Source: Crambe crambe
Lineage: Eukaryota; Porifera; Demospongiae; Poecilosclerida; Crambeidae
Direction: 5' to 3'
NCBI GenBank assembly: GCA_963924555.1
Contig: OZ004590.1
Span: 4,186,501 to 4,250,500, forward strand
Length of the DNA stretch: 64,000 nucleotides
Part shown: positions 12,949 through 60,400 of the stretch, piece after piece
How positions within the stretch are numbered: the stretch's first letter is position 1
Layout of the letters: each line of letters starts with the position of its first letter
Notes under the pieces: model-generated
Database searches by the model: none
Seen by the model: only the letters and a program-made list of their open reading frames with translations
Told to the model about the DNA's origin: nothing
Position numbers and translations under genes: made by a program

Positions 12949-15900
12949 CTATGCATTGTCATACACTCCTTCAGAATTAGCTGATGGAGGAACTTCATGA
13001 GGTGGTTGTGCTGCTGTGATTTGCTCATAGGCCACACATGCACTCATTTCCAATTTTTCACCACTATAATAATAGAAATCTGATTACTGAAAGAAAATTT
13101 TTGAATGCAGTAAAATCTGTCTCATTCTAGACGTCTAGTTGTAGCTAACTGCAGCTTATGACCTTGTTATTGCACTTGCATAGATGTGTTCTGCATTATC
13201 CACTTCCCTAAAAATGTGAAGTTATAAGCTTATATATATGCATGGAGGTTATACTCACTTTTTCTTGGTGTGTTTATTGCATACATAGAGTATTATGAAC
13301 CAAATAGTGTTATTCAATATGAGAATCGAAAGGATGGACACAACCACAGCTATGGCAATGTCTCTTCCACATGTTTCAGCTATAAGCACATAAATAGTAG
13401 ATCAGCTGACATAGGACACAGAAGTCACAGAAATCTATATTTACATGTACCAGTATGGCTAGTTACCCACCAGAAAGATTACAAGGTCTCCTGAGTGAAA
13501 CTTCAGATCTCTGTCCCATGACCCTCACATCTCCATACAACAAGGCAACAGCTGCCACTTGAAACTGATAGTCCACATTACTCATCAAATCATCAATCAC
13601 TAGAGAGTTCTGAGAACTGGCAACAGTAATAGACTGTTCATTCCTCCTGCTCCCAGTAGCACTGTAATAAACTGTGTAATTGGTTATCTCCATGATGTCA
13701 ATTCTGTTCCATGACACTCGAACTGAAGTAGAAGTTAATTCCTCTACCCGAACATTCATCACAACAGCTGCAAGAATTATGTATAACAGGTTTAAGACAA
13801 ATGTAAAGAGCCTCAGCCACCTATATGTATCATAGCTAGCTATTGTAAAGGAACTCACGTGGTTCACTAAGTGTGACTGTATTCAAAGAAGCAGCTTCTC
13901 CTTGTCCTACACTAGTGTAGGCTCTGACTGAAATAAACACTCTAGTCCCTGGAGTCAGTCTTGGGATAGTGAATATAGTGTTTGAAATTGTGATGTTGGA
14001 CATGACAGGAGCACTATCATTCACTGTGTAGGAGATCTCGTAACGTAAAATGACTCCATAAGGATTCTGAGGAGCACTCCACATGATGTCTATGGAGGTG
14101 AACTTTATTTTATTTCCTAAATTTGATACAGGACCTGGGGCTACAAAAAAAACATCATAATTACTAGCTTTGATGAATGTCATGCAGCCTTACTATCTTC
14201 AACTGTCTGAATAGTAATGAGATCAGAGAAAGGTCCTGTGCCGATGCTATTGACTCCAGCTACTCGGAAGGTGGAGTTACTGAAAGGAGTGAGTCCACTG
14301 GCAGTGAATCTCCTTTCATCCACCATCAACACACCAGGAATTACACTTCCTTCCAATGATGAGAATTCCACAGTGTAATTAGTGATCATCCCATTACGTT
14401 CAATACACTCAATCTCATTCCAGGACACACTGACACTTCTAGCAGTCACAGAAAATACTATATTCTGTGGAGATCCAGTGGGGACTACAAAAAGAAACAG
14501 CTATTTTATTCATTCATTTAATAGATATTTTTGCTAAACAAATAAACTGCTGACACCATTTCAAGAGCTTTGAGCTATATTACCTGTTGAGATTGTAATG
14601 AATTCATGAGGAGTTGATGTCCTAGACACACCGAATACTCTGGCAGTGACTGTGATGGTGTAGATACTGAATTCCTGGAGGTTAGTGAAACTCGTGGAGA
14701 TAGTGGTGATGGTCATTTGTCTGCTGTCTGTAATTGTTGGACACAATTGTCGGTTGCTGCCAGTCAGTCGCTGCAGGGAAATGGTGTAATCATCTGCTGC
14801 TAGACTCCCTTCAGGCTGGGACCAGGTAATGGTGACTGATGTGGCAGTTATTGATGATGATGTGATAATTGGTGCTGGGAAGTCTGTATAATATTTACCA
14901 CAATGAAAAGTGCTGAATATGCAAGAGTATAAAGTACCTTTCACAGTGACCTCCACTAGTCCCACTATCTCACTAGGATAGTGCTGAGAAAGGGCCCTCA
15001 TACGAATACTGTGCACACCTGGTGTCAATGATATGGTGTGTGAAGTTGAAGAGGAAGCAACATCAATACCAGCACTGAAATCTGTTGAGTCAATTGTTAT
15101 CCGGTACCCCACACGAGGTGGAGGGGATGGTGCAGTCCAGGAGACTAACACAATGCCAATCCCATTCTGTCTGACCATAAGGTTAGTAGGAGTACTACCT
15201 GGATAAATGTTTCATCAGGAGTCATTATAATGATTGGCTCCTAATTATTTGCATTCTGTCTGACCATGAGGTTAGTAGGAGCTGCATAGACTGTTTGTGA
15301 GGAGCAGATAATAATGACTGGCTCTAAAACATGCCCCTCCCTGTTTCTGGAATTAATAGTTACATGTAGCTAGTTATTATCATTCCTTTTATGTTCATAA
15401 TGTTTTTAAATAAGCATATAATCTGGAATTAGGTGACCTTGTGTATATACCATTACCTTCTATAGTGATATTGGAGGTGAGAGTGTTGTTAGTGGCTCTA
15501 TTGGAGACAGAGTACTGGTACACTCCAGGTAGCCTCCCAGTCACAGTCAGTGTGCTCCGATAGCGACTATTGTCATATGCATTTGGGTCAGTCACACCAT
15601 TTACTCCAATGGAAATACTGAATGAGTCATTATTAGTGATGGGTACACCATTTCTTGTCCAAGTGTAATTTTCAGGAGGACCTCCTTCAGTATCACCAGC
15701 CAGAGTGAAGGATGGGGAGGCAGCCATAAATAAAGATGATGTAATACTCACTCCAGTTATTCTAATAACACCTTCATGTACTGGAGAAAAAAATCATTTC
15801 ATAGAATAAATATCTGGTAAATGTTAAATCTGAAAATTTTTGTTGCTAGTCATTTATATTCATAGTCACCTTCCACTAATTACATAATGAAACTATGATA

Positions 15901-18900
15901 GTGTAAAGACTACAAGTAACTACGAGCTTCTTTCATAATCAGTTCAATTATCACTAAGTCTTGTTACAAAGAATATTTTACTCACCTGTCACACCACCTC
16001 TTCTATAATAAAATCCCACAGGAACTGCTGTTGAAATATCACCATTCCGTCGACAAGTAAACAATCCATTATGATAACTAAATCCTGTAAGATTGATCTC
16101 ATCACTTGTCCCAGTTCTCCCATCATTGATAATTTGGGCCGTGAGGTTTCCACTTGGTATTATCTGGTAGATGAGCCTTTGACGTATATTAGTGTCAAAG
16201 GATGATGTACCATCTCCTGCCCACCAAGCAATATTGCCTACTGTAGAGCTGCAGAATAGACCACCAGGACCATTAGGATTACGGAGTGTTGGTGGAGATG
16301 AATATATAACAGTTTCAACCTCATCATGATATATCAGTGTTGGAATGCCTGTAATGTTATTTCCTCTCCAAGTAACAGTCACTGCATATAGAGAATATTT
16401 GGTCATGGTTACCATACATCAGAATTCTGGATAAGAGATGGCTGTGTAATATGTAGTAATAGTAGAAATGTAACCACTCTAGCTAGTTATAAAGCTGATG
16501 AAGTCGATAAAAAGTGTGACATCTATTAAATACACATATTAAGTTTGGTGATTTTAACAGCTAGTCAGTTATTTTTTTAGTTGGAAAAAAGAAAATATAT
16601 ACATTATTGGTTTACATTACTTGGTTGATTCAAAGCTAAATAAATGTACTGAAAAGTAGCTATGCAAGCCAGGCCATGCCCCCACATACGTATACTCTTT
16701 ATAACATGTGTGTGCACTTTATCTTTATCAATATCTGCAGCATAGCACCTTTCTATAGGGCTTGGGGGGTTAGACATTAAACAACGGGTTGGTAGCAAAA
16801 TTTAATGTTTACAAATGAAAAGAATGAAGTTTGGAAATGTGCTTGAATGACGGTACTAGTGCAGTGGTTTACAGCTGCACTAGCTATAGAGTTTTTGTTT
16901 CCAAGCCCCAAAGCTTGTCTAAACTTTTTTAATGTTTGTGTGTATGCATGGTGCTCATAATTATTAACAAGGAATATTATACAGTAGCTATCTTGAACTT
17001 AGCAATTATTTTAGCAAGTTCAATTGCTGCTGAGATAACTGTACAAATGAATAATGAATGGACCACTGCATGGAGTTTCTTTTCAACTTCATGCATTTCA
17101 CCACATGAATATTGTTGGTTTAGCTAATAAAACAAACACTCACATGAGGGGATCTAGAACCATACAACTTTATGAGAGAAATATTTTATGGCTATAGCCA
17201 TGATGTGAGTAATTGTATCATGCCTCATCCACAATGTAGTACGTACACAATTTTGTTATGATAACCATGCATGGAAACCATGGTTGCTCTTATTTTGTAC
17301 TATAGATGTAAACATCATCACTGGCTGAAGTTCGTGAATTCCACCATATGTATGCATGATTGTTGTTGTAGCTATCTAATTATTAGCTCACATGAGAGGA
17401 TTTATAATCTGTAAATTATGAGAGCATAATTATAGCAATGTTGCACTGTAAACAGAAGCATTATAATTATGCACACTAAAATGTCCCAATTCACACAAAC
17501 TATGCTGCATGTATACACTTTCATTTTTCATAGTGTGCAAGATCATTGTATCAATCATGTCTTGTAAACCAAGTAAAGTGCCCGTACATAAAACCTGTGG
17601 AGATGTTAGTACATGCACGTAGCAAAGTTCATAGGAAAGATTGGCTGCATAAAACCCCTGTAGATAGCTTGCAAGGTGTTTTTGGTGCATTAATCATTAA
17701 TTAACATGCAGGCAGTCACATCTTTAGTGTGCAATATGAGGGTAAATTAAATGCAGAAGCAGAAGTTTAATAGTTAGTCAGTTATTTAGTACTTTTTGGA
17801 AAATATATAAGCTATTGGTTTACATTATGAATTTTGAAGCTGAATTTATTAACGTACTGAAAAGTATGCAACCTCAAAAATAAGCCAACCCACGCCCCCA
17901 CAGTACTCTAAAATAGCTAGTTGTGCATGTGTGTGTGTGATACCCCCTTAGGATGTAGTAAAAGGTTCCCACTATTCATTTCAGTGGAGCAATCCTATGC
18001 TTCAGGTCTACCTTAATGTGGTGTGGGAGAGAAGGTGAAACAATAATGATCATCATATCAAGTTACTCCACATCCAGATAATGATGGTCATGAGTATACA
18101 CGTAGTTAATAAGCCCACACATTCTTCAGATGGTGGGACCACTTAAAGCATTACGTAGCTATGTCAACTCAGACTTGTATGTTTCCAACTATGGTTTCAA
18201 TAGTCAAGTGATTGCTTTTGGAGAAAGATATGTATTTGGAGAGAGATAGCTAGTTGCAATTACAAATTGCATGGATTTCTGTACATTACCACTAAGTCTT
18301 GATAAAACACAACAAATATTGTGGAAAGCCCTTGATTTATAGTAAACTCCATTGTATTGTTCTGTCATGCTTGAGGGGCACTATATTTCATTGAACTAAT
18401 GACGCTTGAAAAATAGTCTCTAAGTGACTTCTCTCTGGCACATACACAAGGTGCTTAACTCCTAGCATGAAAATAGTTGAGTATAAGTTCTAAGGGAGAG
18501 GCTCACCCTCTCCCATTTGTTATAGTAAGGGCCGGCTGGGGTATTGCCCCCACCCCCATATTGTTCTTACAACACACTTATGTAACCCATTATAGCTTTG
18601 CCCATCACCATGTGGCACACTATGCAACTAGCCTCGAACCCAGCTCCTCTTTTTCTTTTTTGGGGGGCGGGGGAAATAAAAGGAAAAAAGCCGGAGACTG
18701 GGTTCGAGGCTAACTATGCTACCTGACCAAAGCCATCTGGAAAAGGGTACTGTTTCAGATAGTTGGGGGCTATGATGACCATCTATAGATGTGGTGTAGG
18801 CTCTAGTAAACTATTAAGACTGTAATCGAGCTCAATAGCTAGCTAGAACTTCAGAGACTCACATTGTTGACTTTGTACAGGCACTAGAAGAATCAGTAAT

Positions 18901-20918
18901 ATCAGCATTATCAACATAATCAGTCCCTGCAACCTAGAACTGATATAGAAGTACTGTACGGAATTTCACTTTGGGGGGGGGGGGGAAGCTCACTGATCAT
19001 GTGGCCCAGGCAACAGTGAGGGGGAGGGTGTGGGAGGGAGATGTGCCCCCTCTCGCACAGAGCACAAAAGAAAATTTTACTTTTTTTTGGAGGACTCATT
19101 GTTGGCTAATTCTCCACAAATTCCAATATTCTATTAGGGAAGGGATCACATTTCTTTCAATCAATAAGTATATAGCTATAGCTATAAACCTTATGAATAT
19201 AAAAAAAATTGGGGGGGGGGGAAGCTTCCTCCCCCCTCCGGCCCCCAGTAGATGAAACCCTGCTAATAATGTGCAACATCATTTGTGACTTGAAACAATG
19301 CAGTCACTAATGTGCAACATCATTTGTGACTTGAAACAATGCAGCCACTAATATGCAACATCATTAGTGACTAGACAGTAGACTTTACTGCTGCAGTTAG
19401 TCAATTATATAATGGGTCAAAAAAGTGGGGGGGGGGGGGGGGGGGCTCTAGCCCTCTCACCCCCACCCTCAGCCACCACTGAAAATCTAACAAGAATTCG
19501 ACCCATACAAGATTCTGCCTTGCTATGCATAGTCAGAGAGGGTAAGGAGGAGGCCTGAAGTTTATAAAGAGGTTCAGTTTCAAGGCCATAATAATTATAT
19601 CAATAAGGAGAAAACTGCAAGCATATTAAATACTGCATATGTAGCTAATTCAACTTATGGTAGAGATTATAATAGATAGCTAATGCAAGAACTGTTTTAC
19701 AGATTCTTGTGGCACCAATGAATGATAAGATTGGTACTGGTGCGTGGCTGTGCATAAGATATGAATATGTAGTTATAAAGCTAGGTATGTCCATTCTGAT
19801 TGTTGCTAAGTGTTGTGGAATTTGTGGGACCAAAATTAAATCAGTAAATGAGGTCCTGAAACCCTCCTCAAGATACTCAACAAAGACTCCACATCATCCA
19901 ACAGCATGCACTCAGACAGTGAGGAGTGGATTACTCTTATAGATAGAGGAGGACTCAATTATGTATCAAACAACACATTATCATCTGCTTGTTGAAATGG
20001 AGTATGAACTGCATGTTTTGCTGAAAGAGGAGGATTTACAAGAATTTAAGAGCACAGCAACCACCAAAATTCTACACAATGAAAATGTACTCCATTACTG
20101 TATAGCTATTCTTGTGACAGTTCAATTGCATAAACAATCATCTACAGCTGCTGCTAAGATAACTGCTCTAGCTAAATGAACTACATGCAAGTGTGTTTAA
20201 TAAACAAACCCTCACATTGAGCTAGGGGATTTCATGGCTATCCACTACATGGTTCAATAATTTGTATGCATGGAAAACACCCATCTACAGCTGCTGCATC
20301 CTGCTCTTATTTTATACAATGGCGGTGAACATCATCATGCAATGGATTACTGAAGTTTGTTTAAATTCCATGCATTTCACCACATGCATGATTGTTGATA
20401 GGTGTGCAGTATACACTAAGTAGTACCCATACACAAACACTATAGGTGTGCAATGTATACTTTCATTTTGTATTGCGCATGATCATTGTATCGATAATGT
20501 CTCATGACCAAGCAAAGTGCCTGCACTACACAAAACCTGTGGAGGTGTGAGGTGCTAACTAACTAATGTCATGCATCTAACAGTGTATAGGTTTTTGGGA
20601 AAGATCGTCTGCAATTCCTGTAGCTATACGTACGTAGCTTGGTATTTTTGGTGCATTAATCAAAATGCAGGTAGTCATATTTTTTCTAGTATAATCATTC
20701 TTTATTCCCTCAAAATACTGTACCTACATCTCACTATAATAATATCACCCCATATCCATAGATGTGGTATAGGTTTTATTAAGACTGTTATCAAGGTACA
20801 AGGTAGTTATCACACTATAGCAGCTAAAACTTCTTCATAGAGACTCACATGGTTGACTTTGTACAGGAACTAGAAGAATCAGTAATGTCAGCGTTACCAA
20901 CATAATCAGTTTCTGCAT
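12949..20918 (-). CDS. Gene B: intact Ig2-FN3x5 receptor with ITIM-like tail
   Basis: Exons in coding order: signal 20849-20918; NIg 15986-16381; Ig 15457-15780; FN1 14938-15198; FN2 14584-14883; FN3 14194-14484; FN4 13859-14140; FN5 13471-13767; transmembrane 13259-13379; tail 13163-13207; tail/stop 12949-13063. They total 2502 nt, giving 833 residues with no frame break. The signal peptide is MQKLIMLVTL to VQSQP. The membrane exon has CGRD, then IAIAVVVSILSILIL, NNT and IWFIILYV, followed by a basic HTKKK stop-transfer. The tail has tyrosines in HIYASA, VAYEQI (fits the ITIM consensus) and VYDNA (a YxN, Grb2-SH2-like site). N-glycosylation sequons (NIT, NYT) occur in several domains. Expected: type I plasma-membrane receptor. 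The first tail intron has a weak donor (GTCATA), shared in type with gene D. A second signal-like exon lies at 18863-18932. This is the cleanest full gene in the window. Confidence 0.88.
15252..15286 (-). pseudogene. Fragment of FN1 exon 5' end in gene B intron
   Basis: Repeats the start of FN1 (APTNLMVRQN) with its AG acceptor but stops after about 35 bp. Genes D and G carry the same fragment, so it is an old partial exon duplication. Confidence 0.6.
18629..18712. mobile_element. 84 bp Mutator-like MITE, gene B copy
   Basis: Ends TAGCCTCGAACCCAG and CTGGGTTCGAGGCTA; flanked by ACTATGCAAC and ACTATGCTAC (9 of 10 match), consistent with a 10 bp target duplication. TIR start TAGCCTCG is shared with the nested element at 21690-22459. 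Confidence 0.65.
18863..18932 (-). pseudogene. Second signal-peptide-like exon of gene B, start codon lost
   Basis: Closely similar to the signal exon at 20849-20918, with the same GTGAGT donor and phase, but the initiator ATG is TTG (18930-18932). The next in-frame ATG at 18915-18917 would give a shorter hydrophobic leader ending VQSQQ. No DR1 element lies upstream. Either a relic or a minor alternative first exon. Confidence 0.6.
18973..19445. repeat. Three poly-G runs and 41 bp tandem repeat, gene B copy
   Basis: G-runs of 13 (18973-18985), 11 (19211-19221) and 19 (19427-19445). A 41 bp unit (AATGTGCAACATCATT start) repeats about 2.6 times at 19268-19373. Confidence 0.85.
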
Positions 20919-23843: not shown

Positions 23844-26800
23844 CTATGCATTGTCATACACTCCTTCAGTATTAGGTGATGGAGTAACTTCATGAGGTGG
23901 TTGTGCTGCTGTGACTTGCCCATAAGCCATACATGCATTCATTTCCAATTTTTCACCACTATAATATTATGTAAACACAAAATTATAATAGATGATAATA
24001 TAGAAATCTGATATGTATAGGAATGCAGCTATTTCATAGGGTGCCCATTGCTCCAGCACTATTATATGGAATTGATTCAAAATGTTACTGCATCTCTAAT
24101 GGGGCATACATGCTTGTGGCTTTTTCTTTAATACCCCTCCTTGAATTTCTACAGCTCCATTATAAAAAAGAGATTAGTATATTAGAGAGTATTAATAACT
24201 TACCTTGTTGTTGAAGCTTCATAGATGTGTTCAGCATTATTCACTTTGTTGCATGCACAGAGTATTATGAACCAAATAGTGTTATTCAATATAAGAGTCA
24301 ATAGGATGGACACGACCACAGCTATGGCAATGTTTTCAGCTGTAACCACATGAACAGTAATCAGCTGACATAGGACTGAGAACCAATAAATATAGCTAGT
24401 TATACTCACCAGAATGATTACCAGATCTTCTAAGCAACAATTTGGATCTCTGTCCCATGACTCTCACATCTCCATACAACAAGGCAACAGCTGCCACATG
24501 AAACTGATAGTCCACATCACTCAATAAATTACCAATCACAACAGAATTCTGTGAACTGGGAAGAGTAAAAAATTGCTCATTCCTCCTACTCCCACTAGCA
24601 CTGTAGTAAACTGTGTAGTTGGTTATCTCCATGATGTCAATACTGTCCCATGACACTCGAAATAAAGTAGAACTTAATTCCTCCACCCGAACATTCATCA
24701 CAACAGCTGCAATTTTTAGCTATTACTGTATGCATAGCTAATAAAGGAAGAACTCACGTGGTTCACTAAGTGTGACTGTATTCAAGGAAGCAGCTTCTCC
24801 TTGTCCTACACTAGTGTAGGCTCTGACTGAAACAAACACTCTAGTACCTGGAGTCAGTCTTGGGATAGTGAATATAGTGTTTGAAATTGTGTTGTTAAAC
24901 ATGACAGGAGCACTATCATTCACTGTGTAGGAGATCTCATAATGTAAAATGACTCCATAAGGATTCTGAGGGGCACTCCACATAATGTCTATGGAGGTGA
25001 ACTTAGTTTTATTTCCTAAATTTGATACAGGACCTGGGGCTACAAAAAAAAAAATGCTAGCTATGATGAATGCCATGCAGCCTTACTATCTTCAACTGTC
25101 TGGATTGTGATGAGATCAGAGAAAGGTCCTGTGCCAATGCTATTGACACCAGCTACTTGGAAGGTGTAGTTAGTGAAAGGAGTGAGTCCACTGGCAGTGA
25201 ATCTCCTTTCATTCACCATCAGCACACCAGGAATTACACTTCCTCCCAATGATGAGAATTCCACAGTGTAATTAGTGATCATCCCATTACGTTCATTGCA
25301 CTCAATCTCATTCCAGGACACGTTGACACTTTTAGAAGTTACTGAGGAAGTAATTCCTTGAGGAGATCCAGTGGGAACTTATACATTATAAGCCAATTAA
25401 TACAAAATATATATATTGAGTCTGACATACTGTACCAGTTGAGGTTGTGGTGAATTCATGAGGAGTTGATGTCTTAGACATACCAAATGCTCTGGCAGTG
25501 ACTGTGACAGTGTAGATACTGAATTCCTGGAGGTTAGTGAAACTCATTGAGGTAGTGGTGATGGTCATTTGTCTGCTGTCTGTAATTGTTGGACACAATT
25601 GTCGGTTGTTGCCAGTCAGTCGTTGCAGGGAAATGGTATAGTCATCTGCTGCTAGACTACCTTCAGACTGGGACCAGGTAATGGTGACTGATGTGGCAGT
25701 TATTGATGATGATGTGATAGTTGGTGCTGGGAAGTCTGTATAATAATGTACCACTATGAAAAGTGCTGAATATGCAAGAGTATAACACAAAGTACCTTTC
25801 ACAGTGACCTCCACTGGTCCCACTATCTCACTAGGATAGTGCTGGGAAAGGGCCCTCATACAAATACTTCGCACACCTGGCTGTAGTGTTATGGTGTATG
25901 AAGTTGCAGAGAAAACAACATCAATACCAGCACTGATCATGGAGTCAATTGTTATCCGGTACCCCATACTAGGTGGAGGGGATGGTGCATTCCAGGAAAC
26001 TAACACACTTCTGACTCCATTCTGTCTGACAATAAGGTTAGTCGGAGCTGCTAGGGCACCTGCATGACCAAATAAATTAGCTAACTACAACAGACCATTC
26101 ATTCTGTAATAACAATAATACATATTACATTGATGACTGCTTCACCACACCAACATTATGAATCATTTGGATTTGACTCACATATAGTACAGACAAAGTT
26201 CACCAGATTTAGATGATGTGTGTAATATTATATACGTAACTTCACCTTTATCTCTGACATGTATAAAGACTCTTCCTTATCATACATAAATAATTAAAAT
26301 AACCTTCTATACTGATATTGGAGGTGAGAGTGTTGGGTGTGGCTCTATTGGAGACAGAGTATTGGTACATTCCAGGTAGCTTCCCAGTCACTGTCAATGT
26401 GCTCCGATAGCGACTATTGCTATATGCATGTGGGTCAGTTACATTATTTACTCCAATGGAAATGCTGAATGAGTCATTATTAGTGATGGGTGCACCTTTC
26501 TTGTCCAAGTGTAAGTTTCAGGAGGACTTCCTTCAGTATCACCAACCAGAGTGAAGGATGGGGAGGCAGCCATAAATGAAGATGATGTGATACTTACTCC
26601 AGTTATTCTAACAATACCATGTTCTGGAGAAAAATCATTTCAGAGAATGCACATAATTATGTGGATTATACTCAACTAAAATGGATATTATTTTAATTTT
26701 ATAGTCATCCTCTTTGCGTCTAAATCCATTTTCATGATTTGTTAGCTAATCAGATTCATCTTCTTAGCAGGCTGTTAACTTCATGATCCTTTCACATAGC

Positions 26801-30240: not shown

Positions 30241-33200
30241 CTATGCATTGTCATACACTCCTTCAGAATTAGCTGATAGAGGAACTTCATGAGGTGCTGT
30301 GACTTGCCCGTAGGCCATACATGCATTCATTTCCAATTTTTCACCACTATAATAAATAGAAATCTGATAACTGAAAGAAAATTTGAATGCAGTAAAATTC
30401 TATCTCATTCTGCTAACATCTTATGAATTATTATTTGACCTTGTTATTGCACTTGCATAGATGTGTTCTGCCTTATTCACTTCCCTAAATGTGAAGTTAT
30501 AAGCTATTATCAATATGATTCATGCATGGAGGCATATACTCACTTTTTCTTGGTGTGTTTATTGCATATATAGAGTATTATGAACCAAATAGTGTTATTC
30601 AATACAAGAATAAAAAGGATGGACACAACCACAGCTATGGCGATGTCTCTTCCACATGTTTCAGCTGTAAACACATGAACAGTTATAGCTCTATAAACAA
30701 CAGAGAAACAGTTACTCACCAGAAAGACAAAATTTTCTAAATGACATTTCAAATCTCTGTCCCTTGACTCTCACATTTCCATACAACAAGGCAACAGCTG
30801 CCACTTGAAACTGATATTCCACATTACTCAACAAATCATCAATCATGACAGAGTTCTGAAAACTGGAAACAGTAATAGACTGTTCATTCCTCCTACTCCC
30901 GGTAGCACTGTAGTAAACTGTGTAGTTGGTTATCTCCGTGATGTCAATTCTGTCCCATGACACTCGAACTGAAGTAGAAGTCAATTCCTCCACTCGAACA
31001 TTCATCACAACAGCTACAAAAATTATGTATAACATAGGCTCAAGACAAATTTAAAGTGCCTCAGCCACCTATATGTATCATAGCTAGCTATTGTAAAGGA
31101 ACTCACGTGGTTCACTAAGTGTGACTGTATTCAAAGAAATAGCTTCTCCTTGTCCTACACTAGTGTAAGCTCTGACTGAAACAAACACTCTAGTCCCTGG
31201 AGTCAGTCTTGGGATAGTGAATATAGTGTTTGAAATTGTGATGTTGAACATGATAGGAGTACTATCATTCACTGTGTAGGAGATCTCATAACGTAAAATG
31301 ACTCCGTTAGGATTCTGAGGAGCACTCCACATAATGTCTATGGAGGTGAACTTTGTTTTATTTCCTAAATTTGATACAGGACCTGGGGCTACAAAAAAAA
31401 ACAATACTTGCTAGCTATGATGAATGTCATGCAGCCTTACTATCTTCAGCTGTCTGAATAGTAATGAGATCAGAGAAAGGTCCTGCACCAATCCTATTGA
31501 CACCAGCTACTCGGAAGGTGTAGTTAGTGAAAGGAGTGAGTCCACTGGCAATGAATCTCCTTTCATTCACCATCAGCACACCAGGAATTCCACTTCCTCC
31601 CAATGATGAGAATTCCACAGTGTAATTAGTGATCATCCCATTACGTTCAATGCACTCAATCTCATTCCAGGACACACTAACACTTCTAGCAATCGCAGAA
31701 TATACATTCTGTGGAGATCCAGTGGGGACTACGAAAAGGAACAGCTCTTTATTCATTCATTTTAATGATTATTAATGTTGTTTTTGCTAAGAAATAAATA
31801 AAGTATACATTCTGCTGACACTATTTCAAGAGCTTTGAGCTATTGGGTCATACCTGTTGAGGTTGTGATGAATTCATGAGGAGTTGATGTCCTCGATACA
31901 CCAAATGCTCTGGCAGTGACTGTGACAGTGTAGATACTGAATTCCTGGAGGTTAGTGAAACTCGTAGAGGTAGTGGTGATGGTCATTTGTCTGCTGTCTG
32001 TAATTGTTGGACACAATTGTCGGTTGCTGCCAGTCAGTCGCTGCAGGGAAATGGTGTAGTCATCTGCTGCTAGACTCCCCTCAGGCTGGGACCAGGTAAT
32101 GGTGACTGATGTGGCAGTTATTGATGATGATGTGATAGTTGGTGCTGGGAAGTCTGTATAATAATGTACCACAATAAAAAGTGCAAAAATATACACTAAA
32201 AGTACCTTTCACAGTGACCTCCACTGGTCCCACTATCTCACTAGGATAGTGCTGGGAATGGGCCCTCATACGAATACTGTGCACACCTGGCTGTAGTGAT
32301 ATGGTGTGTGAAGTTGTAGAGGAAGCAACATCAAGACCAGCACTGAAATCTGTTGAGTCAATTGTTATCCGGTACCCCATACTAGGTGGAGGGGATGGTG
32401 CAGTCCAGGAGACTAATGCAGTACCTATCCCATTCTGTCTGACCATAAGGTTAGTAGGAGTACTTCCTGTGGATAAATTTTTCATCAGGAGTAATTATAA
32501 TGATTGGCTCCTAATTAATTAATTGGCTCCAATCCCATTCTGTCTGACCATGAGGTTAGTAGGAGCTGCAGGGGCTGTTTGTGAGGAGCAGATAATGACT
32601 TTTGTATATCAGAGAGTACGAAAGTACTCTCTAAGTAGGGATGGCACAGATGCTCCATTGGAGTAGTACTTAATATTTTCTTTCATAACTTCAGAATACG
32701 TACCTCCTGCATTCAGCAACTCCTAACTTGAAGACAGAACACCTTCAATGTGCTAGGACTCAAATATGAAGAGCAGAGAACAAAGCAGTATCATTTTATA
32801 GCGACTTCAAAAATCGCCGTTTTCATCTGGTCATTCGTCATCATCATCCTCATCATCATCATCATCATCAAACAACTTATTTTCAGACATGGTTCATTCA
32901 AATGCAATAATTCCTATACCAATCTACTCAGAAATGACTGCGCTATAATCCTTTACCTTTATGTTCAAAAATAGCACGTCATTTTCCAACTTGTTAGCTT
33001 TCAACCTACAATGAGGCAGACATTATTATGCCCCACCCCGTACACGTGATTCTTGGACCTTGACCTCGCAACTGACTAGTGAATCTGTCATTAGCTTTCT
33101 CGGTCTCTCAATGCTCAGAGCGTTAAACCCTAGGCACTAGTCTGGTTATGAATCAACCCTTGATGCAACAGTATATCAGGTACAAGGCCTTAAAAATTAT

Positions 33201-45018: not shown

Positions 45019-45020
45019 TA

Positions 45021-45899: not shown

Positions 45900-48800
45900 C
45901 TATGCATTGTCATACACTCCTTCAGTATTAGGTGATGGAGTAACTTCATGAGGTGGTTGTGCTGCTGTGACTTGCCCATAAGCCATACATGCACTCATTT
46001 CCAATCTTTCACCACTATAATATTATGTAAACACAAAATTATAATAGATGATAATATAGAAATCTGATATGTATAGGAATGCAGCTATTTCATAGGGTGC
46101 CCATTGCTCCAGCACTATTATATGGAATTGATTCAAAATGTTACTGCATCTCTAATGGGGCATACATGCTTGTGGCTTTTTCTGTAATACCCCTCCTTGA
46201 ATTTCTACTGCTCCATTATAAAAAAGAGATTAGTATATTAGAGAGTATTAATAACTTACCTTGTTGTTGCAGCTTCATAGATGTGTTCAGCATTATTCAC
46301 TTTGTTGCATGCACAGAGTATTATGAACCAAATAATGTTACAGAGGTTTTCAGGTTGGTTGACACAAAATTTGCCAACAATGCAGAATTAAATTCGTGCT
46401 CGCTAAATTTAAGACCATTGCATTTGTATGACAGTATATTTTACTCGCATGAATTTATTTTGCACATGCGCAAATTCTACTGGTCAACCAACCTGAAAAC
46501 CTCTGTATTCAATATAAGAGTCAATAGGATGGACACGACCACAGCTATGGCGATGTTTTCAGCTGTAACCACATGAACAGTAATCAGCTGACATAGGACT
46601 GAAACCAATAAATATAGCTAGTTATACTCACCAGAATGATTACCAGATCTTCTAAGCAACAATTCAGATCTCTGTCCCATGACTCTCACATCTCCATACA
46701 ACAAGGCAACAGCTGCCACATGAAACTGATAGTCCACATCACTCAATAAATTACCAATCACAACAGAATTCTGTGAACTGGGAAGAGTAAAAAATTGCTC
46801 ATTCCTCCTACTCCCACTAGCACTGTAGTAAACTGTGTAGTTGGTTATCTCCATGATGTCAATTCTGTCCCATGACACTCGAAATAAAGTAGAAGTTAAT
46901 TCCTCCACCCGAACATTCATCACAACAGCTGCAATTTTTAGCTATTACTGTATGCATAGCTAATAAAGGAAGAACTCACGTGGTTCACTAAGTGTGACTG
47001 TATTCAAGGAAGCAGCTTCTCCTTGTCCTACACTAGTGTAGGCACTGACTGAAACAAACACTCTAGTACCTGGAGTCAGTCTTGAGATAGTGAATATAGT
47101 GTTTGAAATTGTGTTGTTAAACATGACAGGAGCACTATCATTCACTGTGTAGGAGATCTCATAATGTAAAATGACTCCATTAGGATTCTGAGGGGCACCC
47201 CACATGATGTCTATGGAGGTGAACTTTGTTTTATTTCCTAAATCTGATACAGGACCTGGGGCTACAAAAAAAACAATAATTGCTAGCTATGATGAATGCC
47301 ATGCAGCCTTACTATCTTCAACTGTCTGGATTGTGATGAGATCAGAGAAAGGTCCTGTGCCAATGCTATTGATTCCAGCTACTCGGAAGGTGTAGTTAGT
47401 GAAAGGAGTGAGTCCATTGGCAGTGAATCTCGGCCTTTCATCCACCATCAACACACCAGGAATTACACTTCCTCCCAATGATGAGAATTCCACAGTGTAA
47501 TTAGTGATCATCCCATTACGTTCAATGCACTCAATCTCATTCCAGGACACACTGACACTTCTAGAAGTCACAAAAAATGCTATATTCTGCGGAGATCCAG
47601 TGGGAACTATAAAAAGAAACAGATAAATTACTATAGTTATGGCTAGTATATTATGCAGAAGCTTGAGTCTAACTAGACCTATACCTGTTGGGAGTGTGGT
47701 GAATTCATGAGTTGATGTCCTAGGTGTACCAAATGCTCTGGCAGTGACTGTGACAGTGTAAATACTGAGTTCCTGGAGGTTAGTTAAACTCATTGAGGTA
47801 GAGGTGGTGGTCATTTATCTGCTGTCTGTAATTGTTGGACACAATTGTCGGTTGCTGCCAGTCAGTCGCTGCAGGGAAATGATGTAATCGTCTGCTGCTA
47901 GACTACCCTCAGGCTGGGACCAGGTAATGGTGACTGATGTGGCAGTTAGTGACAATGATATTATGATGGTTGGTGCTGAGAAGTCTGTATAATACACCAC
48001 AGTAACAAGTTTGTGTCTTAAAGGACTTGATGCCTCGGCATTTAGTATACTTGGCTATAATACAATATCATTTGGGGTTACCTTGTCACTGATTCCCTCT
48101 CTTGTATGCTTTCTTGCTGCTTCTTTAGGCAGTCATGAATCCCTGTTCTCACTTTCATGTTATTCCCAGTACTTTCTCTGATGATCGTTAACTTGTCTAC
48201 TGCCTCTGCTCTTACTGGTTGGCTCTCTTTCTACTTTCTCATGACTGTTAACTTGTCTACTTGTGACTTTGTAGCTTCTGTTCTTGCTTTCTAGTATAGG
48301 CAAGTATAGGCAATGTGCAGCATAGTCTTATTATGCTCTTGATGGTTCTTTCTCACTTGCTAGCTGAGAAAGTTATGCGAATAAGTATTTGCGCATGCTG
48401 TACTAATAAGACATACAAATCATGCGCATGCACAGTCGCCTCCAGCACTGTACCTTTGCAGAGGCAAAAAGTATTGAAGAGTACACACAAAAAGTACCTT
48501 TCATAGTGACCTCCACTGGTCCCACTATCTCACTAGTAGGATAGTGCTGGGAATTTGCCCTCATACGAATACTGTGCACACCTGGCTGTAGTGTTATGGT
48601 GCGGGAAGTTGAAGAGGGAGCAATATCAATACCAGAACTGAAATCGTCTGAATCAATTGTTATCCAGTACCCCATACTAGGTGGAGGTGATGATGGAGTC
48701 CAGGAGACTAATACAGTGCCAATCCCATTCTGTCTGATTGTAAGATTAGTTGGAGTTGTACCTAAGATGAACACAAATATTGAAATAACAAGTGTGAGTA

Positions 48801-51800
48801 TATAACTGCTCAATTACCAGAACTCTCAGAAAATAGCTAGAGCTTAGCAGATTAAATACCTTATTGTGACTTACGTAAAAGCCTGCAAATGATATCATCC
48901 TGAGGCTGCTACTAGCAACCAGACATGATCTTAATACTATGCAAACAAGTACACTGACACAGGTGGCATATTAACTACCTTCTATATTGATATTGGAGGT
49001 GAGAGTGTTGGGTGTGGCTCTATTGGAGACAGAGTACTGGTACACTCCAGGTAGCCTCCCAGTCACAGTCAGTGTGCTCCGATAACGACTTCTGTCATAT
49101 GCACTTGGGTCAGTCACACCATTTACTCCAATGGAAATTCTGAATGAGCCACCATTGGTGATGGGTGCACCATTTCTTGTCCAAATATAAGTTTCAGGAG
49201 GACCTCCTTCAGTATCACCAGCCAGAGTGAAGGATGGGGAGGTAGTCATAAACGAAGACGATGTGATACTTACTCCAGTTATTATAACAACACCAAGTCC
49301 TAGAGAAGATCATCAGTAACAAATAATAAATTTTTTTCCATCGAGAGAGTGCAATAATTATTGACAAAGAGACAACAATCACACTTCTTGTGTAGAAGGT
49401 TTAAGGGGCTCTTAAACCAGGGGCCTTTAACCACTCCATGGCTTCAGACTCAAGAATAGTGGCTATATGTATCCAGGAGGATTGTGTAGGAGTAGAATTA
49501 TAAACTACATAGTTATAACAGAAGACTTTCCAACATAGCAACTGACAGCTGCTCAGGTTTCATTAATTTTACTTAGACCAATAAAACATGTTTTTATTGT
49601 TACACATTACATTACTAGTGCTGCAAAAAAGTATGGTCCATATCAGTGCAATTATAGAATTAATTGAAATTGCATTCCTTAACACTGTACTAGGGCAGTG
49701 TGCAACATTTGACAGCAAGTGAGCGAGCAAGCAAGTAGGTATTCTTTAGTGCTTCAACTCTTTAGAAGATTTAGTTTATATGTACTTAAGCCTAGAGCCT
49801 ATACAACTACTACTATAGCAATGTGCAGCATTTGACAATGAGCAAGTGAGCAATCAAAGTAGCTGATAGGCTCCAGTGCTTGATATTGCTGTCAGAGACA
49901 AGAGTGGTGGTCCCAACCAGGAAGCTCCATACATAGAAAGCTGTAAATGCTTACCATAAGCACTTAGATAAGCCAAGCACCTACAAACCACTTAGATAAG
50001 CCTATCATCTCTATGACAAAAGGCTGCGGATATCAATCCAGCTCGATTACAATTGGAACATGTGCATTATGCATGCGCAGCGCTACTAATTCAGGATACA
50101 TACCACTGTACATAGCCTGGGGCATTTTGGAGTGTAGATATAATTATTTAAAATTTCAATGAATCATGACCTGTGAGTTAGCTCGCTCGCTGAATTATGA
50201 TTTACGCACCTCTTGAATAAAACCCCACAGGAACTGCTGTTGAAATATCAGCATTTAATCGGCAAGTAAACAATCCATTATGATAATTAAAACGAGTGAG
50301 ATCCTGAGTTCTCCCATCTTTGACAATTTGGGCTGTGAGGTTTGCACTTGGTATTATCTGGTATATGATCCTATTACGTCTATTGATATCCAGAATGTAG
50401 TTTGTTAAGCCATTTCCTGGCCACCAAGCAATAGGACCAAATGTATAATTGCAGAGTAGACCACCAGGACCATTAGGACTAACAAGTCTTGGTGGAGGGG
50501 AATATGTAACAGTTTCAACCTCATCATGATATATCAGTGTTGGAATGCCTGTGATATCTGTTCCATTCCAAGTAACAGTTACTGCAAATAATTATAGAGA
50601 ATAATTTTTATGAGCTCACTTTGTGTTATAGCTATAGCACCATGTAGCTATAATTATACTGTACATATATTTAACTGAAATAAAAATGAAGAATGGACTC
50701 ACATGACTTATTTAGTGTCATCAGATTAGTCAAATTAGCTGCTTCTCCTTGACCTATGCTACTATAAGCACTGATAGAGACAGACACTCTAGTCCCTGGA
50801 TTGAGTGCTGGGATGATGAAGGTAGTATTCACAGTTGTATTGGTGACAGGAGCACTACTATTAATGGTGTAGGTGATTCCATAACGTAAAATGATTCCAT
50901 TAGGACTTTGAGGGGGAGCCCAAGTGATGTCTATGTAAGTGAACCTCAGTTTGCTCCTGAGGTCAGATACAGGACCAGGGACTATAAAATAAAATTACAG
51001 TGTTAATATCTAACATAGCTATGGCTTTTAATAGTGAAATTTAAGTCAAACATACTGTCTTCAGCTGTCTCAATAATGATGACATTGGAGAAAGGTCCTG
51101 TGCCATTGCTATTGACTCCAACTACTCGGAAGGTGTAATTAGTGAAAGGAGTGAGTCCACTGGTAATGAATCTCCTTTCATTCATCATCAACACACCAAG
51201 AATTATACTTCCTCCCAATGATAAGAATTCCACAGTGTAATTAGTGATCATCCCATTACGTTCAATGCACTCAATCTCATTCCAGAACAAACTGACACTT
51301 CTAGCAGTCACCGAGTGAGTGATACCCTGTGGAGATCTAGTGGGGGCTGCAACATCAATGAGATTATGAATGTGGTACATCAGAAACTTAATTAACTATA
51401 GATATTGACCTTGTGCAGATATAATAGGCAAGATATATACTGTGGAACCTCCATCCTCTTTCTGTTGTAAAGAGGTTGTCCTCTTTTGGTCATCTTTTTC
51501 AGCTTGACTATTTTTTGAGTGTGATTTTTTTACTACAGTTTTTCTGTGTTCAAATGACTCATAGTGAACAGCACAATTTATTATTCAATTATGAATCATG
51601 CGATCAAAGAAGTAGTAAATTTGGTCATTACCCATGGAATACATAATTATGAGGAACTAAATGAGCAGTAATTACATAGAGACATCAAAATAGAACTTCA
51701 TTATAACTATATACGTATAGAGCTCACTTATATGCTGACGTATAGCTAGCTATATCTGCCTCTTCTCACATTTCAGAATCTAACTCCAATAATTCTGCTT

Positions 51801-54800
51801 CTAACCTCAAAAACTTAAGCAGTAGGCATTAATTGGTAGAATGAATGATCAGGGTTCTCCCTAGGCATCTTAAGGCATAGCGGGGCGCTATGCCTCAGTT
51901 CTATCCGCTATGCTTTGCCCCTTACCGCTATGCCTTCTTCTTGTACCGCTATGCCTTGTAGATAGATTATTCTTGATGTAGCACACCAGATTAGTCATGC
52001 GTGGTTTGCAATAATAACATAATTCCTTATAAGGCAGGTGTTGTTATTGTAGTACACGTGTAGGTTGCAATGCATAATTGCTCTAAAGATCTTTGTAGTC
52101 AGACCAAGGTTAGATGATAGTGGAAGTAGTAAGTGCAGCTCAGCCTCTAAACCTCTTGTGATTAATAAGCTGTTATAGTGCAAATAGAGCTAATCTGGGA
52201 CCTTATTGGATTCGCTATATTTCAGCTTCTGCACTATGCATGGGAGGGGGAACATCCCCCTCCCGCACCCACCCCCTGTGGATGCCATACAAGCTCACCC
52301 CTATGCCTTAAGAAAATCCTGGGGAGAACCCTGATGATGTAATCTATGGAGCTGGTACTGACAGCTACTCAACAAAGGCTAGCTATGTAGTTGGGAGCCA
52401 CTGCTGCTGAGGAGGTTCTATACTATTTAAAGAAGGTGCTGTAACTAGAATAAGGTCAAAAAAGTATACAATTTGCTCAAGTCAGGCACTGTATAGCTAC
52501 CAAAGTCAATTACTTAGCCCATACCGTGATATGCAGGGGTAATAATGCCCTTACGTTTAGTGTTAGAATGGTGAATAAGCTACTAAATTATATACCACCT
52601 CACACTTTATATGTAGCATAATACCTGCCGGGGTTGTGGTGAATTCATAAAGATTTGATGTCCTAGACACACCAAATACTCTGCCTGTGACTGTAACAGT
52701 ATAAATACTGAATTCCTGGAGGTTAGTGAAACTCATCAAGGTAGTGGTGGTGGTCATTTGTCTGCTGTCTGTAATTGTTGGACACAATTGTCGGTTGCTA
52801 TCAGTCAATCGCTGTAGGGAAATGGTGTAGTCATCTGCTGCTAGACTACCCTCAGGCTGGGACCAGGTAATGGTGACTGATGTGGCAGTTATTGATGATG
52901 ATGTGATAGTTGGCATCATGAAATCTGATATCATCAAATACTGTTAACTTGGTATATTGCACCCCTCTTCTATATGTACCTTTCACAGTGACCTCCACTG
53001 GTCCCACTATCTCACTAGGATAGTGCAGGGAAAGGGCCCTCATATGAATACTGTGCACACCTGGTTGTAGTGATATGGTGTGTGAAGTCGCAGAGGAAGC
53101 AACATCAATAACAGTACTGAAATCTTCTGAATCAGATGTTATACGGTACCCCATACTAGGTGGAGGGGATGGTACAGTCCAAGAGACTAACAGACTCGTG
53201 ATCCCATTCTGTATGGCTGTAATGTTAGTGGGAGCTGCACCTGTACCAATACATATCAATAGTCATAATTCAGCAGCCAGATCAGGGGTCATAGGAATTC
53301 AACATGTAGATATATCTATAGGTTTCACCACACCATGGCGTATTATAGTAAGACCAACTTGAGTTTAAATACGTACTACAATTTCAATAGAATTAGTTCT
53401 CATAAATTAGCTTTATGAAACAAATCACTGATATTTTAACCAGAATACTCATTAATAGTACATTATAACCTTCTATTGTGACATTTGAAATGAGAGTGTT
53501 GGATGTGGCTCTATTGGAGACAGAGTACTGGTACACTCCAGGTAGTATCCCAGTCACAGTCAGTGTGCTCCGATAGCAATTATTTTCATATGCACTCGGG
53601 TCAGTCATACCATTTACTCCAATGGAAATACTGAATGAGCCACCATTAGAGATGGGTGCACCATTTCTTGTCCAAGTGTAAGTTTCAGGAGGACCTTCTT
53701 CAGTATCACCAGCCAGAGTGAAGGATGGAGGGGTAGCCATAAATGAAGATGATATGATACTTACTTCAGTTAGTGTAAGGACACCAAAACCTGGATAACA
53801 ATTGGTAAAAATTGCCAGGTTCAATATATTTTTTCCCAAAGACAGCAGGAACCATTCTTAACTATAACCACTAACCTCCTCCTTGCAGTAAAGGGCCGAG
53901 TTTGGAAATTTAACCACCATAATTGATAGACAGCCACATAGTGCATGATGATTATAAGTACAAAAAACTCACCTCTTGTATAAAATCCCACAGGAACTGC
54001 AGTTGAAATATCACCATTCTGTCGACAAGTAAGTAATCCATCGTGCCCATTGGATGTTAGATTACTCCCATCACGGACAAATTGAGCCATAAGGTTTCCA
54101 CTTGGTATTATCTGGTAGAATATCCTCATACTTTTATTAGTAGCAAATTCTATTGTTGTTGAACCATTTCTAATCCACCAAGCAATTGAAGGACTTGTAG
54201 AGTTACAGAGTAGACCACCAGGACCATTAGGATTACTGAGTGTTGGTGGAGGTGAATACATAACAACTTTGACTTCATCATAATATATCAGTGTTGGAAT
54301 GCCTGTGATGTCAGTTCCATTCCAAGTAACAGTCACTGCATAATTATAAAGAAATCAGTCGAATAACCATGAAATTCAATCAAGCAATCAACGTGTCATA
54401 ATATTCATGAATGTAGCAATTTCAGTCCTGAGCATTGTCCCCTCTATAATGAGTATAGCTAGCTAAAGGAAGACTGATGGTGCTTCACTGACTTCACGTG
54501 GACATGCGCAGTTAAGGCTCAAATCAACTTGACCTCTCCGTGACTTGTGCTCTTGATAAGCGTATATGCCAGCTTGATGCAATCATACAATGGATACTAA
54601 AAATAGCTACGTAGCAAGTAGCTATAGCAGTGTGCTTTTCATTATCCTAGCTGTACTTTTGTCCAAACTGACAATTATGTCTCTATCAAAGCCATGAACA
54701 CAGAAAATACATATTTTTATAGCTAGATCAGCTACTTCAGACTCACATGGTTGACTTTGCACAAGATGGATCAGTAATGAATAAAGAACCAGCCTCACCA

Positions 54801-56812: not shown

Positions 56813-57402
56813 GCTATAGCTACCTATAAAGCTAAAACAAGATATTTGACCAATACGACTCTGCCTTCTACATGTAGCTATAGGAGTCAGAGAGCCTGGA
56901 TTTTATAAGAGGTTCAAGGCTAGGCCAATAGTGATTATTTGGTCTCACAAGGTCAGGAAGGAGCCAATATGGTAACTAGGAGTGAGGAGGCTTTGGGTCC
57001 ATCTCAACCCCTCCTGACATAGTCTCATTCTTCCCTGTTAATTCCTGTGCTTTTCTTTCTTTCCTTCTTTCTTTCTTCTTTCTTTCTTTCTTCTTTCTTT
57101 CTTTCTTTCTTTCTTTCTCTTTACTAATTTGCACTTTTCCCACCTCCACGCATCATATAATAGCTAGCTGCATGGTCTATATAGCTAGAATCTTATAGAA
57201 TCATTATCATAATTATTATCTAAAATTCTTGACATGCATGGCCATAATTAGCTATATACTTTTCATTATAATAGAGTATAACATCACTGCACACTTGCTA
57301 AAGTTTAGTTAGCTTACTTAGCTATCATTTGTAATCGAATTCAGTTGACAATATAACTGGCTAAAAATAAGGACTGTCATAGTTAGCTACGTGCTAAAGC
57401 AG
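56813..57402. other. Spacer between pseudogene P and gene G
   Basis: Includes a CTTT/TTTC microsatellite at about 57056-57118. No gene recognised. Confidence 0.6.
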
Positions 57403-60400
57403 TTAAATATTATCATACACTTCTTCATTGTTAGCAACTTCATGTGGTGTTTGTGTTGATGGAACTTGTCCATAAGCCACACATGAACTCATATCCACTT
57501 TATCACCAGCACCCATACTAAAGAAGTAAGTGAATAGCTACTGATTAACATGCATTCTCCCCCAATAAGGGATCACAGCAAAATGCTACATAAAATAATG
57601 TCTAATATATTATGGAAGTACCTTGTTGTAACTTCATAAGTGTGTTCCATGTCTTTGTTAGCATCACTTTTTTCCCTACATACAATATTAATCAGTATCA
57701 CGCAATACTGAACTTCGTGCATATCCACCTCTCTCCCCTGGCCCTATAAGCATCTAGACTACATCTAGCGACTGAGTTACTTACTTTGATCTTTTACATG
57801 AATAGAATACTGCAAAAAGGATAGTATTATTCAGCAGGACAGTCAAGAGAAAGGTCACCACAACACTGATGGATATGTCTCTGCCACACATGTAAGTTTC
57901 ACCTGCATGTGTGTACATTTATGAATCAAAGAGAGTAGCTACAAGTGGAAATGCAGGACATTCAACCAATTTTATAGCCAAAGATGAGACAAATGAGGAG
58001 AGAGAAGTCAGACAGAGCTTGAGAGAGTACAATTTGTCTTTGGAGAGTATTGAGAAAAAAAGGACAGGCTTCACTTTGAGCAGAGCATCTTGCCTTATTT
58101 TTATGTTTTACTCTTTGCTTTCAACCATGTCTCTCCATTGTTTATTTTGATACATAGAACTCAATCTTAGCTATCTGGTCTATGTGTGTATTTGGTAATG
58201 GTTATCACATATCACATGGAAAAACACAATGCATGTGCTTTCATGAGTACTTTTTGTTAGTTTGGGGCTTGCTCAAACTCATCTCTATAACACATAAATG
58301 ATGTTAATACTCACCTGGAGAAGGAGGAGATGTAGGAGATACAGCATCAGATCTCTGTCCTGTTAAACTAAATGAACTTCTTCCCTGGACTACAGCTGTT
58401 ACTTGAAAATAGTATGTCACATTACTCAGCAAATTTCTAATGGCTACGGAGTTTTGATTGATGGGAATAGTAATAGACTGTTCACCATCTTGTCTCTCTC
58501 TGTTACAAACGGCTCTGTAGTAAACTGTGTAGTTGGTTATCTCTGCACTGTTGACCATTTCCCATGAAACTCTCACTGAAGTAGCACTTAATCTTTCCAC
58601 CTGAACATTCATCACCATAGCTAAAAAATGTAGATATAAAAATGTGGTAGCTATTTGATATCTATACTTGGCTGTTGCCTTAAGGTTGAGTGCACAGTCA
58701 TAACTATTAGCTTTTTATGAAATTAATAATTTGACCAAAAATAAGAGTATGTAGCTATAGATAGAACATAATAAACTAGTGCCTATTATGTATAGGCATA
58801 GCTATTAATATGCATGTATATTTTTTCAGGGGTTTGAAATTTAAAGGTATAGCCAAGCATGCAGGTACGTAAGACAGTAGCAGCTATGATAAAGTTCATC
58901 ATGAGCAATACCGTTAGACTTGTCACTAATATCTAGCTAGCTTTGAGTTTTCATACATATTTATTGCCATTGCTCTACACCAGTCCACAGATGCAGAGCT
59001 CACATTGTAGTCTCGCACAGCCTAAAGCCTTTCAGGTAATGGTCAGCTGCCCTGAGTATAGGCTATAATAGTATGGAGATGGAAATCTTGCCCTTACTTA
59101 ATTCTTAAACCTTCGTTGAAAACTGGAGAGTATCATCTTGACATTGTTATAAGGCTGAAATAGAATTAAGCATTCTAACCGTTACTGGGATGTAACAGAT
59201 ACACACACTTGAGTACTGTAATTCTTGCATGTGCTGAAGGTTAATAAGATTAACATGAATGAGCTAGTGGATATTCAAGGTGGTCTTGTAACGCATGAGT
59301 CTAGTCTGACAGTTCAAAGTGCTATTGTGTTAATAATGAACTCACGAATAGTAGGTGTCATCAAATCAGTCAGATTTGCAAGCACTCCTTGCCCTAAACT
59401 AGTGTAGGCACTGACTGAAATAGACACTCTAGTCCCTGGAGTCAGTGATGGGATTGTAAATGCTGTATTCAATTCAGTACTGTTTGTGACAGGAGCACTA
59501 TTGTTGATGGTGTAGGTGACCTCATAACGTAAAATGATTCCATTAGGACTTTCAGGGGGAGCCCAAGTGATGTCCATAGAAGTGAACCTTGGGTTGCTCC
59601 TGAGGCCAGAAACTACACCAGGTACTATACAAAGAAATTAATTTCACTTTATCACCATAATGTAGCTACATGCAGTCAAATCAAACCTACTATCTTCAGC
59701 TGTCTGAATAATAGCCACATCAGAGAAAGGTCCTTCACCATTGCTATTGACTCCAGCTACTTGGAAGGTGTAGTTAGTGAAAGGAATGAGTCCACTGGCA
59801 ATGAATCTTCTTTCATTCACCATCAGCACACCAGGAATTACACTTCCTCCCAATGATGAGAATTCCACAGTGTAATTAGTGATCATCCCATTACGTTCAA
59901 TGCACTCAATCTCATTCCAGGACACACTGACACTTCTAGCTGTCACTGAGGGAGTGATTTGAGGTGATCCAGTGGGGACTGTAACAATTAATGATGCCCT
60001 TATATCAATAATTATGGTATGAAAATATTAATCAGTTCCATCTTACACCTTATACTAAGAATGTATTTACCTGTTGAGGTTGTGGTGAACTCATGTGTTG
60101 ATGTCGTAGGTGTACCAAATGCTCTGGCATTGACTGTGACAGTGTAGATACTGAATTCCTGGAGGTTAGTGAAACTCAATGAGGTAGTGGTGATAGTCAT
60201 TTGTTTGTTGTCTGTAATTGTTGGACACAATTGTCGGTTGCTGCCAGTCAATCGCTGCAGGGAAATGATGTAGTCATCTGCTGCTAGACTACCGTCAGGC
60301 TGGGACCAGGTAATGGTGGCTGATGTGGTAGTTATTGATGATGATGTGATAGTTGGTGCTGGGAAGTCTGTATAATAATGTACCACAATGAAAAGTGCTG

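Follow-up and report, generated by a model that had tools for sequence, protein, structure and literature searches.

Candidate SH2-docking receptors with short tyrosine-bearing tails, and apparent phosphatase sister genes, in a tandem array of the sponge Crambe crambe

The window analysed here is a stretch of 64,000 nucleotides from the genome of the sponge Crambe crambe (GenBank assembly GCA_963924555.1, contig OZ004590.1, hereafter C13, positions C13:4186501-4250500). Positions given below without a contig or locus name are those of the window. Its minus strand carries a tandem array of genes for putative receptors, in which the parts are ordered as a candidate signal exon, a domain that we call the N-domain, an Ig-like exon, about five FN3 domains, a transmembrane (TM) exon and two exons, T1 and T2, for a short tail. 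In genes B, C, D, E and G the tail reads TM, HIYxx or HTYEV, C(V/M)AYxQ(V/I) and VYDN(A/I)-stop. These three tyrosine motifs (Y1, Y2 and Y3) had been noticed in a preliminary description made from the letters of the window alone, and they are confirmed, in frame and in spliceable exons. TM, T1 and T2 join in frame across introns that are, by reading, GT-AG and of phase 2, and TM and T1 are fused into one exon in C and E. Across the five tails Y1 occurs as HIYAS, HIYEA or HTYEV, Y2 as (V/M)AY(E/G)Q(I/V), and Y3 as VYDN(A/I) followed directly by the stop. No kinase domain follows the TM in the window genes, and the five tails end in a stop. The searched genome comprises 143 Mb in 119 contigs, and the genome-wide match counts given below are lower bounds. 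It has Wnt matches, which fit an animal host, Wnt not being known outside animals.

All exons listed here lie on the minus strand; the exon ends of B to D were computed by script and those of E and G were counted by hand. In gene B, T2 (GEKLEMSACVAYEQITAAQPPHEVPPSANSEGVYDNA-stop, 12949..13063) holds Y2 and Y3, and T1 (13163..13207) holds Y1 as HIYASA. The TM exon (13259..13379) has a core without K, R, D or E, followed by the basic stretch KHTKKK. The FN3 region (13466..15211) includes four FN3 domains recognised by Pfam and, between them, a fifth exon whose copy in gene G is FN3 by Pfam. The Ig-like exon (15398..15793) matches Ig_2 at E 1e-4, under the curated cut-off. The N-domain (15981..16418), our marker for the family, has no sequence match in Pfam or PDB, and an AlphaFold model built with seven window paralogs as input was unusable (mean predicted local distance difference test score, pLDDT, 34). 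The candidate signal-peptide exon (MQKLIMLVTLTLLILLVPVQSQP, 20849..20918) is assigned on position only. Gene C encodes MAYGQV and VYDNA-stop in T2 (23844..23958) and HIYEAS in its single TM and T1 exon (24204..24339). The same two T2 motifs are found in gene D (T2, 30241..30346; T1 with HIYASA, 30440..30484; TM, 30544..30664) and in gene E (T2, 45900..46014). Gene G has VAYGQV and VYDNI-stop in T2 (57403..57517), HTYEV in T1 (57622..57675), a TM exon (57785..57902) and an N-domain (61425..61880).

Some members of the array are incomplete. The TM exon of gene E contains a 165-bp insert with inverted ends (46341..46505); because the insert splits this exon, gene E is probably broken and not a normal receptor. 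By reading, the insert is flanked by a TA target duplication. Gene F (50832-54368) has N-domain, Ig and FN3 exons, and no match to a fifth FN3, a TM or a tail was found ahead of the N-domain exon of gene E; gene F is either truncated or reads on into E. The tail of gene A, assigned by order, lies just outside the window (C13:4185287, locus L044) and ends in VYDDI, without YxN. The copies are closely related: over parts of the array, identity reaches 99% between C and E and about 80% between B and D, and other window copies are 80-95% alike over many exons. The five window tails alone therefore cannot show selection. Stretches of 300 bases at 19847-20146 and 40833-41132, 21 kb apart and near signal exons, are identical, which indicates a very recent duplication there. 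Elsewhere in the window, four direct repeats about 234 bp apart, with an open frame, lie at 4492-5443, and by eye the repeat unit recurs near 9217-10059 and in L074.

The family extends well beyond the window. The N-domain of gene B matched 78 places genome-wide, including 8 short fragments that we excluded from the count of 70 long matches. Of these 70, 63 are on C13 (3.13-4.52 Mb), 5 on contig C1, where two genes appear to have a pair of N-domains each, and one each on C3 and C11. The T2 and TM exons of gene B gave 42 and 46 matches, respectively. A second T2 query, taken from an FN3 array on C9 that was reached through the TM, gave 59 matches, 56 of them on C9; one of the 56 overlaps another on the opposite strand, leaving about 55 further tails. 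Counting tail queries and other anchors, there are at least about 100 short tails, including broken ones. At C9:2.33-3.53 Mb, FN3 exons, short-tail exons (CAAYGHV...KVYDNI) and tyrosine phosphatase matches are intermixed, perhaps as a second version of the arrangement of receptors and phosphatases described below for C13.

To this wider set we applied a codon count. We compiled 69 tails (49 T2 exons and 20 C9 tails picked for spread). Excluded from the codon count were eight tails that carry lesions or lack an end (L030, L040, L042, L048, L059 and L090-L092; in L030, YDN has become CDN behind a stop) and one C9 tail of the 69 that the pattern missed (L098), while L043, which has a frameshift, is in neither count. 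The remaining 60 tails represent 58 distinct DNA sequences. In columns filled in at least half of the sequences, codon parsimony on their tree yielded 243 nonsynonymous and 92 synonymous changes. Just three of these columns lack nonsynonymous change: the Cys three residues before Y2 (3 synonymous changes), Y2 (3) and Y3 (6). Together they show 12 synonymous to 0 nonsynonymous changes, compared with 80 to 243 in the rest of the exon, and the remaining tail sequence varies widely between clades. For Y2 and Y3, the 9 synonymous and 0 nonsynonymous changes would arise with a chance of 3.5e-6 against the 80:243 background if changes were independent, an assumption that is not fully met, as shared descent is uncorrected. 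On these counts Y2 and Y3 look selected. The Cys varies no more than the tyrosines do (kept in 58 of 58, although C9 tails were picked with a pattern that demanded it) and is a further unexplained constraint.

The preliminary description had read the tyrosines as apparently selected. Y1, however, is not constant in the family. Among 51 loci, Y1 is present in only 31; it is lost in four where the exon was located (L027, L031, L032 and L042), and the exon was not located in 16, which include the members at 3.1-3.35 Mb and two C9 loci read that far. HTLDEV seemed to stand at the Y1 place in L056; the exon search did not locate it, and it is counted among the 16. YxN, whose window forms VYDNA and VYDNI had been noted to fit pYxN, follows Y2 in 54 of the 69 tails, and these predicted tails carry the pYxN motif of a Grb2-binding receptor. 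In lesion-free tails, the Y3+1 column is D in 52/58 and the Y3+2 column is N in 52/58.

Most tails came to light through a tail query. Y2 is present in 69/69 tails, which is not evidence of its conservation because the exons were picked by the presence of Y2. More informative are the recognised tails reached via TM or N-domain, in which Y2 is kept in 11 of 12 (L050, L060-L064, L084 and L088-L092); L084 has lost the Y2 stretch and kept LYDNI. For nine N-domain genes on C13, no recognisable tail was found in the partial downstream stretches read; these are at 3206634 (L066/L080, TM found), 3401697 (L067/L081), 3411695 (L068/L082), 3604596 (L070), 3630100 (L049), 3686659 (L073/L083), 4077431 (L087), 4330319 (L086) and 4462627 (L085).

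Other genes of the C13 array seem to couple such an ectodomain to a tyrosine phosphatase; their phosphatase exons went unnoticed in the preliminary description. At C13:3.58-3.88 Mb, 13 protein tyrosine phosphatase (PTP) places are listed among the 150 of 601 candidates scored, and all except 3779749 and 3872770 lie 4-17 kb downstream of a family N-domain on the same strand (11/13). Two genes read past the last FN3 (L069/L078 and L071/L077) have a different TM, then an I-set domain, then PTP exons; by Pfam, L069 and L071 have an I-set, and L077 and L078 a Y_phosphatase domain. The I-set lies on the cytoplasmic side, between TM and PTP (L069:2426-2923 and L071:2144-2677; Pfam E 7e-18 and 4e-18). 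L069/L078 was read to part of the first PTP domain (D1). The catalytic motif, VHC|SAGVGRTG, was read in L077 only, and that gene has HC(x)5R. PTPRS is the best match of its D1 exon, closely followed by alpha and LAR. Behind D1 lies a second PTP domain (L118), recognised by Pfam in three of four pieces and, by eye, without the HCxxGxxR catalytic motif. Searched with PTP exons at E 0.05, the window gave no matches.

The N-domains compared from two such receptor PTP (RPTP) genes, L016 and L014, resemble those of short-tail genes (L011 among others), with at best 91% identity for L016 and 85% for L014, and both sit among short-tail genes in a tree of 15 sequences. L074 and L075 were read through the last FN3 and TM. 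The last FN3 of L075 is nearest that of gene G (76%), and in L069, L071 and L074 it has about 50% identity to short-tail genes. From the likeness of the N-domains and the differing TM and cytoplasmic exons, it follows that the N-terminal part is closely shared and that the TM plus cytoplasmic part differs.

No kinase match was listed in C13:3.1-4.5 Mb among the 121 of 1944 candidates scored, and the idea of kinase tails in the array was dropped. Also dropped was the suggestion, made in the preliminary description, of paired activating paralogs with charged membrane residues. Of 50 TMs located at the 51 loci examined, one contains K, R, D or E, and that one is the TM of gene E disrupted by the insert.

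Possible partners for phosphorylated tails are encoded elsewhere in the genome, where SH2 domains gave 135 matches. A gene on C18 with the order SH2-SH2-PTP is SHP2-like: HCSAGIGRTG is present, a putative last exon contains YGN and LYDN, and the second SH2 best matches PTPN11 (E 1.3e-57). The PTP piece scores highest with PTPRS/LAR chains, because their two domains add up, and next with PTPN11. On C17, SH2/SH3 matches occur at three neighbouring places, of which one was read. This is Grb2 (C17:1.29 Mb), with an SH2 segment (YFLWVVKFNSLN) close to solved Grb2 and an SH3 exon whose best PDB match is Grb2; we take the Trp in the Grb2 SH2 to set the YxN preference. C15 encodes an SH2 followed by a tyrosine kinase, in Src-like order. 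A tandem array at C5:1417826-1522148 (L094 and L095) holds 29 SH2 matches. Where read, it appears to encode two-SH2 proteins with no kinase or phosphatase attached, and these are possible readers of the receptor tails.

On balance, we lean somewhat towards the view that these genes encode SH2-docking receptors with phosphatase sister genes. If expressed, and if their exons are joined in transcripts as predicted, they would produce type I cell-surface receptors with a candidate signal peptide, N-domain, Ig-like domain, about five FN3 domains and one TM, and the short tails would act as phosphotyrosine docking strips. A Src-type kinase would phosphorylate Y2 (C-x-x-Y-x-x-hydrophobic) and Y3 (Y-D-N-I/V/A). 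Phosphorylated Y3 would then recruit Grb2-type SH2 adaptors, and phosphorylated Y2 a different SH2 protein, such as the SHP2-like phosphatase or an adaptor with tandem SH2 domains. Grb2 at Y3 is the best-founded single step because motif and reader are both present. Y2 may recruit the SHP2-like protein, although its -2 position is not that of an immunoreceptor tyrosine-based inhibitory motif (ITIM). Whichever direction the signal might take, the same-array RPTP paralogs, if functionally paired with the docking receptors, could allow one ligand set to be read both by a docking receptor and by an enzyme able to erase its phosphotyrosines. A bolder version, which we offer tentatively as a possibility, is a combinatorial repertoire of about 100 docking genes and their phosphatase sisters. 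It would draw on a single pool of ectodomains, mounted either on a docking tail or on a phosphatase, and the ligand would set the phosphotyrosine balance between docking and eraser receptors.

Several points weigh against SH2 docking. In 6 of the 69 tails (L044-L047, L110 and L117), YDD, YDS or YND stands in place of YxN, which is missing in 9 more via truncation, frameshift, insertion or an unread exon. The tails are mostly tandem copies, and so not independent. A tail lacking CxxY is hard to recognise, so the nine genes without a recognised tail may hide losses. The link to the RPTPs rests on same-strand exon order. Both motifs also have the form of Yxx-hydrophobic sorting signals, and Y3 is usually placed right at the C-terminal end, like a PDZ ligand. 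Sorting and PDZ roles may coexist with SH2 docking.

Sorting might also be the whole explanation. The AP-2 clathrin adaptor reads YxxΦ signals (Φ, hydrophobic), and tyrosines kept for internalisation rather than for SH2 domains would account for the hydrophobic residue at Y2+3 (65/69 tails, the near-constant core being CxxYxx-hydrophobic) and for I or V in the Y3+3 column (47/57). They would leave unexplained the prevalent Asn at Y3+2, the Ala at Y3+3 in 8/57 tails and the tail of L041, which ends at N, and we regard this explanation as unlikely.

A little less probable still is that the proteins are true inhibitory ITIM receptors acting via the SHP2-like phosphatase, for which a gene is present. 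The strict consensus (I/V/L/S)xYxx(I/V/L) is found in 16/69 tails. In the window only B (VAYEQI) and G (VAYGQV) have it, and C, D and E have Met at -2, just as had been claimed. The other 53 tails do not fit. With a hydrophobic residue at +3, the -2 residue is Met in 19 and Ala in 20 of the 69 tails. Among the 22 C9 tails read, 21 have Ala at -2 (Val in L116), and many C13 tails have Met there. Each tail offers a single ITIM-like site, whereas tandem SH2 proteins usually need two sites. The ITIM is thus not the family consensus. Of the SH2-signalling family without a kinase that the preliminary description proposed, what stands is that Y2 and Y3 look selected, that no kinase is listed in the array among the candidates scored, and that SHP2-like and Grb2 genes exist; the strict ITIM does not carry over to the family.

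Improbable, in our view, is that the C-terminal YDNΦ-stop is in essence a PDZ ligand anchoring the receptor to a scaffold. One class of PDZ ligand has Asp at -2 and a hydrophobic end, and most tails stop directly after YDN(I/V/A). Of the 8 tails that extend past the usual stop, 4 have lost Asp at Y3+1, compared with 2 of the 50 others (Fisher p 0.002 from a hand-entered table, overstated because the genes, and in part the extended ones, are related), which hints that a free C-terminus matters. All eight extended tails nevertheless keep Y3 and the aligned N, and a PDZ ligand would have no use for an invariant Tyr at -3. Recent common descent or gene conversion without selection on the tyrosines would suit the near-identity of C and E over matched stretches and the 80-95% likeness of many other copies, and is very improbable in view of the 243 nonsynonymous changes elsewhere across clades against none at Cys, Y2 and Y3 despite 12 synonymous ones.

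Some known systems share features with these receptors. No description of this receptor family was found by title or abstract in open-licence papers, and the available portions of PMC11999971, PMC5429095 and PMC3447736 contain nothing direct on it. For R3 RPTPs, including an Amphimedon sequence, C-terminal YxN sites are predicted in the accessible part of one study (PMC5336234). As far as that part goes, R3 RPTPs and the window receptors share an FN3 ectodomain and a C-terminal YxN site, and R3 RPTPs carry a single phosphatase domain where the window receptors show none (PMC5336234). The phosphatase gene read furthest in the array (L071/L077/L118) resembles two-domain RPTPs (PTPRS/LAR and alpha), with a D1 that best matches PTPRS and a second PTP domain without HCxxGxxR by eye. 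Unlike those, the array phosphatases add the N-domain and an I-set on the cytoplasmic side of the TM; the window itself lacks matches to such phosphatase exons.

In motif layout, the window tails can be likened to checkpoint receptors of the SIRP-alpha and CTLA-4 kind, which have short tails with tyrosine motifs, no kinase, and docking of SHP and adaptor proteins; the window tails have one ITIM-like site and one YxN. Ig-like domains occur in Hydractinia Alr proteins. The part of the source available describes Botryllus FcoR and Hydractinia Alr as membrane receptors of invertebrate recognition loci with ITIM, hemi-immunoreceptor tyrosine-based activation motif (hemITAM) or core YxxI/L/V motifs, and FcoRs as having Ig domains (PMC12065747). 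To that extent, the likeness lies in tyrosine motifs in the cytoplasmic tails of invertebrate membrane receptors. The window ectodomain differs in combining a novel N-domain with a single Ig-like exon and some five FN3 domains, the tail in its CxxYxxΦ core and mostly terminal YxN, and the array in also holding phosphatase paralogs. In addition, Alr and FcoR belong to a recognition locus, whereas the Crambe receptors are known here from the sequence of one assembly, and a role in allorecognition would be hypothetical for them. From cnidarians to mammals, according to the part seen of the same source, receptor families with differing ectodomains have converged on one kind of tyrosine-motif wiring (PMC12065747). 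Another case of this convergence would be a tandem family in which two docking tyrosines are invariant and phosphatase sisters share the array. Such a family would broaden the picture and would link ectodomain sharing to kinase/phosphatase balance in a testable way. On the bolder reading of a combinatorial repertoire, the sponge lineage would have a receptor system of the immune- or self-recognition type that signals through SH2 domains and is independent of those in cnidarians and ascidians.

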